Assembly: GCF_014252955.1 (NCBI RefSeq)
Contig: NZ_JACMIA010000001.1
Coordinates: 248,001-312,000 of the forward strand
Direction of reading: 5' to 3'
Source of the DNA: Stappia sp. 28M-7
GTDB lineage: Bacteria > Pseudomonadota > Alphaproteobacteria > Rhizobiales > Stappiaceae
DNA length: 64,000 nucleotides
Part shown: positions 2,176 through 42,456 of the stretch, piece by piece
How positions within the stretch are numbered: position 1 is the stretch's first letter
How the letters are laid out: each line of letters starts with the position of its first letter
The notes under the pieces: generated by a model
Database searches by the model: none
What the model was told of the DNA's origin: nothing
What the model saw: only the letters and a program-made list of their open reading frames with translations
Position numbers and translations under genes: made by a program

Positions 2176-2316
2176 CTCTGCGCCGCGGGCGGAATCCTCG
2201 GCGCTTGCTCTTGCCCGCTTGCTCGGGCTATCCAGCGAAGCGGAGGCAACCTGCGGGCAACGGTTGCGTTTTCCGGGACCCGGCCCCGGGATCCCGGTTC
2301 TTTCAAGGACTGGATC

Positions 2317-4586
<2,270 letters not shown>

Positions 4587-4663: not shown

Positions 4664-5857
4664 ATGAACATCCACGAATACCAGGCCAAAGAGGTTCTCA
4701 AGGCCTATGGCGCGCCGGTGGCCAAGGGCGTGGCCATCTTCTCGGCCGACGAAGCCGAGGCCGCCGCAAAGCAGCTTCCCGGCCCGCTCTGGGTCGTGAA
4801 GTCCCAGATCCATGCCGGCGGTCGCGGCAAGGGCAAGTTCAAGGAACTCGGCCCCGACGCAAAGGGCGGCGTTCGTCTCGCCTTCTCGCTGGACGAGGTG
4901 AAGTCGCACGCGGCCGAAATGCTCGGCAACACGCTGGTGACCAAGCAGACCGGCGCGGCCGGCAAGGTCGTCAACCGCCTCTATATCGAGGACGGCGCGG
5001 ACATCGAGCGCGAGCTCTACCTCTCCATTCTCGTCGACCGCACCGTCGGCCGTCCGGCCTTTGTCGTTTCGACCGAAGGCGGCATGGACATCGAGGCCGT
5101 GGCCGAGGAGACGCCCGAGAAGATCCACACCCTGCCGATCGATCCGGACACGGGCGTGACCGAGGCCGATGCGGCCAAGCTCTGCGATGCGCTGGAGCTG
5201 ACCGGTGCGGCGCGCGAGGACGGCATGAAGCTGTTCCCGATCCTGCACAAGGCCTTCGTCGAGAAGGACATGAGCCTGCTCGAGGTCAACCCGCTGATCG
5301 TCATGAAGGACGGCCGCCTGCGCGTTCTCGACGCCAAGGTCTCCTTCGACGGCAACGCGTTGTTCCGTCACCCGGAGATCGTCGAGCTTCGCGACGTCAC
5401 CGAGGAGGACGAGAAGGAAATCGAGGCCTCCAAGTACGACCTCGCCTATGTGGCGCTCGATGGCGACATCGGCTGCATGGTCAATGGCGCCGGCCTGGCC
5501 ATGGCGACCATGGACATCATCAAGCTCTACGGCGCCGAGCCGGCGAACTTCCTCGATGTCGGCGGTGGCGCCTCCAAGGAGAAGGTCACGGCCGCGTTCA
5601 AGATCATCACCTCCGATCCGAACGTGAAGGGCATCCTGGTCAACATCTTCGGCGGCATCATGCGCTGCGACGTGATCGCGGAAGGCGTGCTGGCGGCGGT
5701 GAAGGAAGTCGGCCTCCAGGTGCCGCTCGTCGTTCGCCTCGAAGGTACCAATGTCGAACTCGGCAAGAAGATCATTTCCGAAAGCGGTCTCAACGTGATC
5801 GCCGCCGATGATCTCGACGACGCCGCGCAGAAGATCGTCAAGGCCGTTAAAGGTTGA
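4664..5857 (+). CDS. sucC: Succinyl-CoA synthetase (ADP-forming), beta subunit
   Basis: 397 residues, full length. The N-terminus begins [10 protein letters not shown], the ATP-grasp domain follows (the glycine-rich loop GGRGKGK near residues 48-54), and the C-terminal CoA-ligase domain carries 'LDVGGGAS' and '[10 protein letters not shown]', which shape the subunit interface and the phosphohistidine route. With SucD it couples succinyl-CoA cleavage to nucleotide triphosphate formation. Unusually, about 385 bases with a low-GC open frame separate it from sucD; in most relatives the two genes are adjacent. Confidence 0.96.
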
Positions 5858-5948
5858 GCCGCACGCACGCTCGAAACCACGTAGGGCAACGGAAGCTTGG
5901 GAGTCGATAGGAGCTTTGGTTCCAATAAACAGCCCGTTGGGAGGAGTT

Positions 5949-6242
5949 GTGCTGGCATCGTTGGTGCTGAGCATCTTCTCGTTTACAGCGGGTCGCTGCG
6001 CCGGTTGGGTGAGATTTGAGAAATGGGTGTCTCTGGCATCCGTTGCCTTGTCTGGCTTGATCTGCGTCGCGGGTTGGATTTTCGCCAGCTATCTATCGGG
6101 AAGTGCAAATAACGGGCTCCATCCGATGATGGTTGCTTACTTTGCGTTCCTTGCTTCCGTAGTCTTCCTGATCAACGCCCTAGTGGCATTGTTTGGAATG
6201 TGGTTTCGCAGGCGTGCCGTGAAAATGAAGGAAGGCAGCTAG
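5949..6242 (+). CDS. Small integral-membrane protein inserted between sucC and sucD
   Basis: 97 residues if read from GTG 5949, which is preceded by GGGAGGAG; the frame stays open upstream into sucC, so the start is uncertain. It has two to three hydrophobic segments: residues about 2-14, 28-52 and 63-86, then a basic tail (RRRAVKMK). Codon use is unlike the neighbours, with AGA, ATT, CTA, GTA, AAT and GGA, and it has a lower GC content. The stop codon at 6240-6242 abuts the sucD ATG, and its last codons supply the sucD ribosome site (AAGGAAGG). I do not recognise a family. It may be acquired DNA that has become part of the operon. Confidence 0.55.
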
Positions 6243-7151
6243 ATGTCCATTCTCGTCAACAAAGACACCAAGGTCATCGTCCAGGGCCTGACCGGCAAGA
6301 CCGGTACGTTCCACACGGAGCAGGCTCTGGGCTACTACGGCACCCAGATGGTGGCCGGCGTGCACCCCAAGAAGGGCGGTGAGAACTGGACCTCCGGTCT
6401 CGATTCCGCCGCGTCCCTGCCGATCTTCGCCACTGTCGGCGAGGCGCGCGAGGCAACCGGTGCCGATGCGTCCGTGATCTACGTGCCCCCTGCAGGCGCG
6501 GGCGCGGCGATCATCGAGGCGATCGATGCCGAGGTTCCGTTCATCGTCTGCATCACCGAGGGCATCCCGGTCGCCGACATGGTCAAGGTCAAGGCCCGGC
6601 TGGAGAAGTCCAAGTCGCGCCTGCTCGGCCCGAACTGCCCGGGCATCCTGACGCCGGAAGAGTGCAAGATCGGCATCATGCCGGGCTCCATCTTCAAGAA
6701 GGGCTCGGTCGGCGTCGTCTCGCGCTCCGGCACGCTGACCTATGAGGCGGTGTTCCAGACCTCGAACGCCGGTCTCGGCCAGACCACGGCCGTCGGCATC
6801 GGCGGCGACCCGGTCAAGGGCACCGAGTTCATCGACATCCTGGAGATGTTCCTCGCCGACGACGAGACCAAGTCGATCATCATGATCGGCGAGATCGGCG
6901 GCTCGGCCGAGGAAGAGGCCGCGCAGTTCATCAAGGACGAGGCCAAGAAGGGCCGCAAGAAGCCGATGGCCGGCTTCATCGCGGGCCGTACGGCGCCTCC
7001 GGGTCGCACCATGGGCCATGCCGGCGCCGTGATCTCCGGCGGCAAGGGGGGAGCCGAGGACAAGATCGCGGCGATGGAAGAGGCGGGCATCCGCGTTTCT
7101 CCCTCGCCGGCCAAGCTCGGCGAGACCCTCCTTGAGGTCCTGAAGGGCTGA
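6243..7151 (+). CDS. sucD: Succinyl-CoA synthetase (ADP-forming), alpha subunit
   Basis: 302 residues. The N-terminal CoA-binding Rossmann domain starts with '[14 protein letters not shown]', and 'GPNCPGI' marks the CoA site. The active-site His that is phosphorylated lies in 'TMGHAGAV' (His259), near the usual place towards the C-terminus. It pairs with SucC. Its start is directly adjacent to the stop of the inserted membrane gene, so translation is probably coupled to that gene rather than to sucC. A 200-base structured spacer follows before sucA. Confidence 0.95.
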
Positions 7152-7164
7152 TTTTTCGCGATTA

Positions 7165-7299
7165 TCGGTTTTTTTACCGAGTTCGCAGCCACATATGGGG
7201 CACGGGAGCTTCCCTCAAGGAAGTTTCCCGTGTACCGCTTTGAACAGGAGCGGCGCGGGACACGCATCGCGCTGCTTCATCCCACATCCGTTTAAACGG
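7165..7299 (+). promoter_or_regulatory. Hairpin-rich leader between sucD and sucA
   Basis: The spacer holds several inverted repeats: TCGGT/ACCGA around a T7 loop (7165-7180), a long hairpin CACGGGA..CTTCC/GGAAG..TCCCGTG (7201-7232) with a small internal loop, CCGCT/AGCGG just after it, and a perfect 12-base palindrome CCGTTTAAACGG (7288-7299). The first could terminate some transcripts from sucD. The rest looks like a folded 5' leader of sucA. I do not match it to a known riboswitch consensus. Confidence 0.4.
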
Positions 7300-37432: not shown

Positions 37433-40060
<2,628 letters not shown>

Positions 40061-40168: not shown

Positions 40169-40197
40169 TTGACAAAGCGGGCCGCCCCCCCTATACG
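40169..40197 (+). promoter_or_regulatory. Strong promoter of the isolated rpsL
   Basis: TTGACA (40169-40174) matches the -35 consensus perfectly and TATACG (40192-40197) lies exactly 17 bases on. The spacer contains a run of seven C (40185-40191). It is about 43 bases upstream of the ATG. Confidence 0.8.
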
Positions 40198-40239: not shown

Positions 40240-40611
40240 ATGCCGACAATCAACCAGTTGGTTCGCCTGAACCGTAAGCCGACCGTCAAGAAGTCCAAGA
40301 CCCCCGCGCTGGGCGGTAACCCGCAGAAGCGCGCGGTTTGCACCCGCGTCTACACCACGACGCCGCGCAAGCCGAACTCGGCTCTTCGTAAGGTCGCGCG
40401 TGTTCGCATGACCAATGGCAATGAAGTCACCGCCTACATCCCGGGCGAGGGTCACAACCTGCAGGAGCACTCCGTGGTGCTCGTGCGTGGCGGCGGCCCG
40501 AACGACCTTCCGGGTGTGCGCTACCGCGTGATCCGCGGCGTGCTCGACACCCAGGGCGTCAAGGACCGTAAGAAGCGCCGTTCGCTCTACGGCTCCAAGC
40601 GTCCGAAGTAA
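40240..40611 (+). CDS. rpsL: Divergent stand-alone 30S ribosomal protein S12 (probable rpsL paralogue)
   Basis: 123 residues, full S12 length. The core 'CTRVYTTTP', 'KPNSALRK', '[14 protein letters not shown]' and 'DLPGVRY' is intact, and Asp89, the methylthiolation site, is kept. Compared with E. coli S12 the two classical streptomycin positions differ: residue 43 is Arg (codon 40366-40368) instead of Lys, and 86-88 is Gly-Pro-Asn instead of Arg-Val-Lys. Residues 25-27 (Gly-Gly-Asn) and Asn61 are also unusual. It is not followed by rpsG-fusA-tuf as in the str operon, and has its own promoter and terminator. I infer a second rpsL; if it is the only copy, the organism would be expected to resist streptomycin. 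Confidence 0.9.
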
Positions 40612-40652
40612 GCTTCCGGCCGGGTCGCACCCGGCAGGGAATTGTCTTGTCG

Positions 40653-40692
40653 AGGCCTTCCGGACACCCGTCCGGGAGGCCTTGATGTTTTT
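40653..40692 (+). terminator. Terminator of the isolated rpsL
   Basis: AGGCCTTCCGGAC pairs with GTCCGGGAGGCCT (13 bp with one G-T pair) and is followed by TGATGTTTTT. It shows the rpsL unit ends here without rpsG. Confidence 0.85.
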
Positions 40693-40719
40693 GGGCTTCA
40701 GGATTAGCGGGCACGCGAC

Positions 40720-42261
40720 CTAGAGCGTGCCGGCCTCCAGCCGTTTCAGGCTGCGCGCGGCGGCGTTGAGATAGTCCTTGCGGGTCTCCGCCGACATGCG
40801 GTCCCAGGTCCGGTAGGGCTGGGCAAGGCGCGGATTGGCGCCGAGCTTCTCGCGGTTGCGGATCAGGAAGTCCCAATACAGTGCGTTGAACGGACAGGCG
40901 TTTTCGCCGGTGCGGTCCTTCACGTCGTACTGGCAGCCGCGGCAATGGTCCGACATCTTGTTGATGTAGTTGCCGCTCGCCGCATAGGGCTTGGAGGCGA
41001 GCAGCCCGCCATCGGCGAACTGGCTCATGCCGACCGTGTTCGGCAGCTCCACCCATTCGAACGCGTCCGCATAGACCGCGAGATACCACTCGTGCACCTG
41101 GTGCGGGTCGATGCCGGCGATCAGCGCGAAGTTGCCGGTCACCATCAGCCGCTGGATGTGATGCGCGTAGGCCTCGTCCCGGGTCTGGCCGACGACCTCG
41201 CGCAGGCAGGCCATCTTCGTCTCCGCGCTCCAGTAGAAGTCCGGCAGCGGCCGGCTCGCGCCGAAATGGTTGGCGTCCGCATAGTCCGGCATTTTCAGCC
41301 AGTAGATGCCGCGCACATATTCCCGCCAGCCGATGATCTGGCGGATGAACCCTTCGGCCGAGTTGAGCGGCACGGCACCGTCCAGAAACGCTTGCTCCGC
41401 CTCGCGGCAGACGTGCAAGGGGTCGAGCAGGCCGGCATTGATGTAGGGCGACAGGACCGAGTGGTAGAGATACTTCTCCCCGGTCAGCATGGCGTCCTGA
41501 TAGTCGCCGAAACGCGGCAGGGCCTCCTTGATGAAGCGCTCCAGCGCCGCCTCGGCGTCCTCGGCGGTGACGGCGAAGCGGAACGGGGTGAGCGTGCCGA
41601 ACCCGTCCGGAAAGCGCGCCTCGACCAGTTCCAGCACCGCCCGCGTCGTCGCGTCCGGCTCAAAGTCCAGCGGGCGCGGCATGAAGAGGTCGGTGTCCGC
41701 CGGCTTGCGGTTCTCGCTGTCGAAGTTCCAGCGGCCGCCGGCGGGCTCGTCGCCCTCCATCAGCAACCCGGTCTTGCGCCGCATCTCGCGGTAGAAATAC
41801 TCCATCCGCAGCTGCTTGCGGCCGTCCGCCCAGGCGGCGAACTCCTTGGCGCTGCACAGGAAACGGCTGTCGGGCAGGATATCGACCGGCAGATTGTGCT
41901 CGCTCTCAAGCCCGCGCAAGATCTCCAGCACCCGCCATTCGCCGGGCTCGGTCACCCGGATCCGCGAGGGGCCGTGCCGCGCCACGGCGCGGCCGATCTC
42001 GCCCGCAAAGCTGCCGGTATTGTCCGGATCGTCGAGCTCGACATAGTCGACCTGCCAGCCAGCCCGGCGCAAGGCGGCGGCGTGATGGCGCATGGCGGCC
42101 AGGATGAAGGCGATCTTCTTGCGATGATGCGGGACGTAGGTCGTTTCCTCAGCGACCTCCATCATCAGCAGTCGTGCGGCGCTCTTGTCGACGTCCTGCA
42201 GCGCCGAGAGGCCGAAGGAGAGCTGGTCGCCGAGGATCGGGATGAGGACAGGTTGGGTCAT
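40720..42261 (-). CDS. Photolyase-related FeS bacterial cryptochrome/(6-4) photolyase (FeS-BCP class)
   Basis: 513 residues. It matches the photolyase-related family of Agrobacterium PhrB. The N-terminus 'PILGDQLSF' starts the antenna domain; the C-terminal FAD domain carries 'WREYVRGIYW' and four Cys at 352, 440, 443 and 456 (the last three in CRGC...CPF). That spacing is the one that binds the 4Fe-4S cluster in PhrB (350, 438, 441, 454). It probably repairs (6-4) photoproducts in light or acts as a light sensor. Start 42261 gives MTQPVLIPILGDQ, the family opening. Confidence 0.88.
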   Translation of the reverse strand: MTQPVLIPILGDQLSFGLSALQDVDKSAARLLMMEVAEETTYVPHHRKKIAFILAAMRHHAAALRRAGWQVDYVELDDPDNTGSFAGEIGRAVARHGPSRIRVTEPGEWRVLEILRGLESEHNLPVDILPDSRFLCSAKEFAAWADGRKQLRMEYFYREMRRKTGLLMEGDEPAGGRWNFDSENRKPADTDLFMPRPLDFEPDATTRAVLELVEARFPDGFGTLTPFRFAVTAEDAEAALERFIKEALPRFGDYQDAMLTGEKYLYHSVLSPYINAGLLDPLHVCREAEQAFLDGAVPLNSAEGFIRQIIGWREYVRGIYWLKMPDYADANHFGASRPLPDFYWSAETKMACLREVVGQTRDEAYAHHIQRLMVTGNFALIAGIDPHQVHEWYLAVYADAFEWVELPNTVGMSQFADGGLLASKPYAASGNYINKMSDHCRGCQYDVKDRTGENACPFNALYWDFLIRNREKLGANPRLAQPYRTWDRMSAETRKDYLNAAARSLKRLEAGTL

Positions 42262-42389
42262 GGCTCGCGGGAGCTGCGGGGAAAGAAGGGTCTCTTCCCG
42301 GTTACGCATCCCGGCCTTGCGCGGATCTTGCCCCTCTCGCATCGGGGGCGGGCGGGGACAGCCTGCCGTGTCCCCCATCCCGCCCACGG

Positions 42390-42432
42390 GGACAAACGAA
42401 AGACGCCCGGTCGGTGTCCCGCCGGGCGTCTT
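42390..42432 (-). terminator. Terminator-like hairpin upstream of the photolyase gene
   Basis: An 11 bp stem (AAGACGCCCGG / CCGGGCGTCTT) is followed on the minus strand by TTCGTTTGT. It probably ends transcription of the minus-strand gene at 42557-42769. Confidence 0.65.
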
Positions 42433-42456
42433 CATCAAACTGGCTTTGCAAATTTC

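Follow-up and report, generated by a model that had tools for sequence, protein, structure and literature searches.

A displaced ribosomal protein S12 gene with altered streptomycin-contact residues is the only rpsL found in Stappia genomes

The window analysed here, a stretch of 64,000 nucleotides from Stappia sp. 28M-7, contains an rpsL gene that stands apart from the str operon (Table 1). Its open reading frame is unbroken, running through 123 codons to a TAA stop, and the translated protein matches the bacterial uS12 model TIGR00981 (rpsL_bact) at 202.6 bits, well above the curated cut-off of 112.95, over model positions 1-123 of 124, i.e., as a full-length member of the family. The first-pass annotation, made from the letters of the window, had described an intact and divergent S12 off the str operon, between gyrB and a photolyase gene, with Arg43 and Gly86-Pro87-Asn88 next to a retained Asp89 and thus with both classical streptomycin sites altered in one protein; the profile search and the translation bear this description out, the downstream neighbour being photolyase-related. 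At 3 of the 14 Stappia loci that neighbour was not found in the 1.5-kb flank.

Table 1. Features at and around the displaced rpsL gene (positions are those of the window)
Feature	Position	Strand	Basis or remark
gyrB, upstream neighbour (context)	37553..40060	+	adjoins rpsL in 14/14 Stappia loci
Promoter TTGACA-17-TATACG	40169..40197	+	read in sequence; genus-wide invariance
rpsL (bacterial uS12, 123 aa; Arg43, Gly86-Pro87-Asn88, Arg96)	40240..40611	+	sole copy found in genome
Codon 43, Arg (ordinary S12: Lys)	40366..40368	+	sequence, translation, Pseudomonadota sample
Codons 86-88, Gly-Pro-Asn (ordinary S12: Arg-Val-Lys)	40495..40503	+	sequence, comparison with ordinary S12
Hairpin and T run, possible terminator	40648..40697	+	scan: 1 found, 1.0 expected by chance
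Photolyase-related gene (PF04244), downstream neighbour (context)	40720..42438	-	Pfam

A promoter belonging to the gene itself had also been claimed, and it is present: the hexamers TTGACA (40169-40174) and TATACG (40192-40197) are separated by a 17-nt spacer, and CTTTGACAA and CCCCTATA are unchanged in all 14 aligned Stappia upstream regions, while the rest of the spacer diverges. The consensus scanner made no call for this promoter. The accompanying claim of a terminator stood in part, in that a hairpin with a T run does follow the gene, but as many are expected by chance (Table 1) and no sequence conservation of the element was found across the genus; a terminator downstream of rpsL is plausible. 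With rpsG and fusA as reference, rpsL has the highest codon adaptation among the seven window ORFs measured (0.68), but gyrB (0.65) and a dnaN-like gene (0.67) come close; of the ORFs compared with it, one or more are doubtful as genes. A Padloc search gave no match.

We compared the protein with 70 ordinary S12 sequences without the CPR insert, which were picked for Lys43, so that the set does not bear on position 43; the locus L176 is left out of this comparison. Ala32, Met57, Gly86 and Pro87 of the Stappia protein are departures at positions invariant in this set; position 88, Asn in Stappia, is Lys (68) or Arg (2) in ordinary S12, and position 96, Arg in Stappia, is His (68) or Lys (2). 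For position 43, a sample of 398 Pseudomonadota genomes gave the Arg43 pattern twice, the Stappia genome itself counted in, a figure from a fair sample that is nevertheless a lower bound because the pattern demands a TCN serine codon after Lys-Pro-Asn.

The first-pass annotation had further proposed a second rpsL and specialised ribosomes, with a search for another copy in a str operon as the check. No second paralogue was found: the genome of the window (99.98% complete) gave one rpsL match at E <= 10, and a single rpsL was likewise found in all 13 additional Stappia genomes searched (three of them single-contig, two only 85-89% complete), with 97-100% identity to the window S12. Since no other rpsL was found, what the proposal leaves in Stappia is only a relocated, possibly resistant gene. 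The contig that carries this rpsL also carries rpsG, some 2.8 Mb onward, and in each of the ten str operons read from Stappia a small ORF is all that stands between rpoC and rpsG, S12 being gone. The spacer before rpsG measures 727 bp in the genome of the window, as compared with 878-968 bp in three sister-genus loci, and about 200 bp of it is 71% identical to the sister-genus rpsL leader, but no rpsL coding remnant was found in the Stappia spacer beyond weak matches (best E 0.04). Because the leader survives and no coding piece was found, the native gene was cleanly lost from the operon. Purifying selection acts on the displaced gene (six species pairs: dN 0-0.015, dS 0.07-0.48), and since it is also the sole rpsL in all 14 Stappia genomes, it must, as far as sequence can tell, be the working S12 of Stappia ribosomes. 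The small ORF between rpoC and rpsG (L002:2672-3055 in the genome of the window) has no Pfam match, and a small ORF of about 100-127 aa after rpoC and before rpsL or rpsG occurs in sister genera as well (47-61% identity).

Across the 23 sister-genus genomes searched, S12 is 73-76% identical to that of Stappia, whereas the S7 proteins read from sister genera are 83-93% identical to Stappia S7. The S12 was read in 14 of the 23, and every one has Lys43 and Arg-Val-Lys and lies in the str operon beside rpsG; a sharing of the residues by close relatives in their str-operon copy, which would have counted against the first-pass proposal, was thus not seen. On these identities, the Stappia S12 is a jump rather than gradual drift within the family. 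S12 loci fetched by similarity were each time the 30 closest to the query and do not form a fair sample.

We scanned 84,980 species for a coding stretch for Arg-Gly-Gly-Gly-Pro-x-Asp-Leu-Pro-Gly-Val, which retrieved 23 matches, namely 18 S12 genes and five other frames. The 18 genes belong to five lineages: Stappia (10), Hellea (5), Lichenibacterium ramalinae, the gammaproteobacterium UBA7310 and a Falkowbacterium. All 18 S12 genes with this GGGPx loop also have Arg43, and His96 is missing in all 11 GGGPx rows of our S12 tree, the other 68 rows having His (65) or Lys (3). With the residue set recurring in unrelated lineages, the link to the drug is stronger than the first-pass annotation had it. 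Arg43 was met without the loop in three str operons (G230 and the CPR genome L195, both with Arg-Val-Lys, and G409, with Arg-Val-Ser), while no Gly-Pro loop without Arg43 was seen among the S12 read; the loop, as the rarer of the two steps, may therefore need Arg43 to be in place first.

The variant gene also tends to lie elsewhere than ordinary rpsL. Within stretches of 2-17 kb, rpsG was present at none of 44 proteobacterial GGGPx loci and at 115 of 116 Lys43 loci, the one exception being an E. coli plasmid stretch; because these loci overlap and some Lys43 loci were retrieved via rpsG, lineages are the fairer unit, and by that count the variant is off the operon in 4/4 proteobacterial lineages, as far as the 2-17 kb flanks show. 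The five Hellea genomes and Lichenibacterium, for which no completeness is given, show one S12 each. Relocation is not obligatory for the loop, since the Falkowbacterium (L120:1414-1827, a CPR genome) has Arg43 and a Gly-Pro-Lys loop inside its native str operon.

The MAG UBA7310 yielded two rpsL genes; one is ordinary and sits in rpoC-rpsL-rpsG, and the other is the variant, carried on a contig of 276 kb. The variant gene has a GC content of 0.52 within a low-GC stretch (L215, L229; G446:C59:18000-53000), in which the genes on the cluster side have 0.43-0.48 and those on the other side 0.36-0.45, as against 0.49-0.61 some 13 kb further off. The approximately 13-15 kb round the extra rpsL contain genes for an amidinotransferase, carbamoyltransferases, an inositol-phosphate-synthase-like protein, a glycosyltransferase, an APH-type kinase, an AlpA-type regulator and a class-III aminotransferase, and the stretch also contains genes for SurE and a PhyH dioxygenase. 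The amidinotransferase, 11 kb from the extra rpsL, matches the AGAT, HsvA, SxtG and StrB1 structures at E 3e-78 to 8e-63 and is closer to the first three than to StrB1. Two of the carbamoyltransferases exceed Pfam cut-offs, and one of these two matches TobZ (E 3e-93), whereas the remaining one was recognised by the NodU model alone, below that model's cut-off; the inositol-3-phosphate-synthase-like protein is over its Pfam cut-off and reaches 363 bits with the mycothiol INO1 model, whose cut-off is 638. Inositol synthesis together with amidino and carbamoyl transfer would fit the making of a streptomycin-, bluensomycin- or myomycin-like cyclitol, and a guanidino-cyclitol cluster in a gammaproteobacterium is possible on these matches. 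An amidinotransferase of this type was found in 1 of 11 genomes, UBA7310 itself, and in none of five Stappia, three Hellea or Lichenibacterium. This search thus gives no sign that Stappia makes such a drug, and its rpsL, flanked by gyrB and the photolyase-related gene, does not appear to lie in or beside a biosynthetic cluster of this kind as a self-resistance gene would. One further genome of the family to which UBA7310 belongs (G1197, L228) also yielded a second rpsL; the neighbours of that copy are in what is presumably a plastid-like order, and it was discounted as contamination.

Most of what is known of drug-resistant S12 comes from point mutants selected in the laboratory or the clinic. 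In the papers cited here, all of which are used in excerpt, Lys43 and Lys88 are presented as key residues at streptomycin, and in Agrobacterium, an alphaproteobacterium, K43R by itself suffices for extremely high resistance to the drug; Arg43 is the major high-level allele there, and a chromosomal strB is also described (PMC10521367). The residue in Stappia is identical, i.e., a known resisting change, and position 88 is altered to Asn besides. The resistant alleles K43R and K88R thus concern the same protein and the same two contact positions, but the Stappia protein differs from them in being changed at 86, 87 and 96 too, in every genome of the genus searched, and in being encoded by a relocated, sole gene with the native locus deleted, so that no recent point mutant is at hand. 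Resistant rpsL is recessive in merodiploids (PMC2373285, excerpt), and K42R S12 functions in trans in E. coli from a high-copy plasmid (PMC6763770, excerpt). Among five drugs tested, an isolate of Stappia stellulata was resistant to nalidixic acid and to streptomycin, the latter at 100 mg/L (PMC4557100, excerpt), and the two S. stellulata records that we found both have the variant S12; the resistance of this isolate is not specific, because every Rhizobium isolate in the same excerpt was likewise streptomycin-resistant.

We lean, with somewhat better than even confidence, towards a history in which resistance of the streptomycin class came from an additional S12 with an altered target site, after which the normal copy, dominant for sensitivity, disappeared; resistance, antibiotic selection, the order of events and the product of the cluster are what we infer here. 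The changes Lys43 to Arg, Arg-Val-Lys at 86-88 to Gly-Pro-Asn and His96 to Arg would remodel the streptomycin-binding face, so that ribosomes with the Stappia S12 should resist streptomycin-class aminocyclitol antibiotics while decoding is maintained. The extra altered rpsL would have arisen or arrived in the ancestor of Stappia and been set behind gyrB with its own promoter, and drug pressure would then have favoured loss of the native gene from rpoC-rpsL-rpsG, since sensitivity dominates where both forms of S12 are made. The recessiveness of resistant rpsL would thus supply the reason for a double event, in which an altered copy was gained and the native copy lost. Hellea and Lichenibacterium ramalinae, which share the residue set and likewise carry the gene off the operon, would fit this course, and UBA7310 is likely an earlier state, the native gene being kept and the extra copy placed as a self-resistance gene might be, beside neighbours whose products could plausibly build a cyclitol with guanidino and carbamoyl groups. 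Because the rebuild recurs in unrelated bacteria, once among antibiotic-like genes, the relocated altered S12 looks like a naturally fixed ribosomal drug resistance. Against this history stand the sensitive-type copy of UBA7310, which would be costly under dominance unless silenced or outcompeted, the 11 kb between the amidinotransferase and the extra rpsL in that MAG, the ordinary str operons with Arg43 but no loop, the native-operon loop of the Falkowbacterium, and the many substitutions of the Stappia S12 that lie outside the drug site.

Those outside substitutions are what would be expected if rpsL had simply moved, lost the control of the operon and drifted under relaxed constraint with compensatory divergence, the changes at the drug site being by-products never selected by an antibiotic, a course that we consider unlikely though the best placed of the alternatives. 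One trigger could be a changed decoding centre after loss of RimO, the S12 methylthiotransferase that modifies Asp89, adjacent to the altered loop. Not one of the 28 Stappia-family genomes searched (f1, G000-G027) gave a RimO match above the curated cut-off, which suits such a course, and RimO is present in 12 of 18 genomes from other families of the order; with no RimO over the cut-off, Asp89 is probably unmodified in the family genomes searched. A placement of Stappia S12 with its own family is also allowed by the tree (p-AU 0.308, not rejected). However, RimO is missing across the family genomes searched and the altered S12 is found only in Stappia among them, while the loop, Arg43 and the loss of His96 recur in Hellea, Lichenibacterium and UBA7310, which keep RimO (the Falkowbacterium gave no match over the cut-off). 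Co-evolution with RimO was therefore rejected as a sole cause, and drift would moreover leave the neighbourhood of UBA7310 unexplained. The two genes are close together in three Hellea genomes, rimO being next to rpsL or separated from it by one ORF; in L095 the variant gene (5263-5652) adjoins rimO (5796-7223), and in L103 (728-1096) it is one ORF away (rimO at 2243-3652).

Less probable still is a horizontal displacement by an ordinary foreign S12, the loop being incidental ancestry from an unsampled donor. Outside the genus no match exceeded 80% identity among the matches listed, and the best S12 tree, with weak support, sets Stappia outside the alphaproteobacterial rows, both as a foreign origin would have it. 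For that tree 81 rows had been selected, and all but L060 and L207 were used (79 rows, only five of the 14 Stappia rows among them), over 118 columns and without columns 43, 86-88 and 96; the tree requires five label changes and puts the UBA7310 variant among gammaproteobacteria (91/88), which speaks against one donor, although its starred branches by themselves are compatible with one origin of the variant. AU tests rejected neither a single origin of the four proteobacterial lineages (p-AU 0.153), a point in favour of displacement, nor Stappia with Lichenibacterium (p-AU 0.341), nor Stappia with Hellea and Lichenibacterium (p-AU 0.088), and an independent-pairs test had one usable pair only; a protein as short as this (118 columns) does not separate transfer from duplication. 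No loop-bearing donor emerged from the scan of 84,980 species. The CPR as direct donor was rejected because the CPR S12 read have an insert of approximately 13-15 residues that is missing from the Stappia S12, and this too argues against a single donor. As to carriers, the loop had 0 matches in viral_contigs, and the variant was found in none of nine parsed plasmids (H12 omitted) out of ten examined, which came from the best 40 of 68 plasmid records with rpsL; five of the ten (H1, H2, H11, H23, H25) have an annotated rpsG beside rpsL, the H18 stretch, from an E. coli Mach1 plasmid, contains just rpsL, and H9, H10, H12 and H32 have no annotated gene there.

A second S12 specialised for drug or stress, which would suit the two rpsL genes of UBA7310, is hardly tenable for Stappia, with one rpsL in each of the 14 genomes and the native site empty in all ten str operons.

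A broader form of the preferred reading, i.e., that of a resistance gained through an extra altered S12 followed by loss of the native gene, is offered tentatively, as a possibility that we rate as rather doubtful: Proteobacteria may hold a recurrent resistance-type S12 (Arg43, Gly86-Pro87, non-His96), first as an off-operon extra rpsL for self-resistance or acquired resistance, sometimes among aminocyclitol-type genes, and then by takeover with deletion of the native rpsL. If so, Stappia, Hellea and Lichenibacterium would be completed takeovers and UBA7310 would have been caught with both genes, and the signature could locate new streptomycin-class clusters in Gram-negative bacteria, the UBA7310 neighbourhood serving as a search key for streptomycin-like clusters beyond actinomycetes. 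The Stappia case would mean that, given evolutionary time, a resistance-type version can take the place of a core ribosomal protein, and the co-occurring residues suggest to what extent the decoding centre tolerates rebuilding.

In actinomycetes, S12 has already been described both as the target in self-resistance and as an indicator of cluster borders (PMC6763770, PMC9290621, excerpts). The dityromycin producer Streptomyces AM-2504 has a natural S12 altered at the drug site and active in trans in E. coli, and the excerpt of PMC6763770 mentions neither relocation nor a second copy. Dityromycin does not explain the Stappia protein, because its dityromycin site (mature residues 30, 32, 55, 76 and 78) is of the sensitive type throughout (Arg31, Val33, Arg56, His77 and Val79 with Met counted). 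Closer to UBA7310 are the "resistance indicator" ribosomal genes of Psi-footprinting and the berninamycin borders, where an extra or odd rpsL lies by a biosynthetic cluster; those strains are mostly actinomycetes, and the excerpt of PMC9290621 describes no Arg43/GGGPx signature in them. No report of this Stappia gene was found in the titles or abstracts of the open-access literature searched, and a genus-wide displaced S12 with a recurrent set of drug-site residues is new as far as these searches go. The alphaproteobacterium G409 (L065:1501-1869), with Arg43 and Arg-Val-Ser at 86-88, has both streptomycin sites naturally changed in an ordinary str operon.
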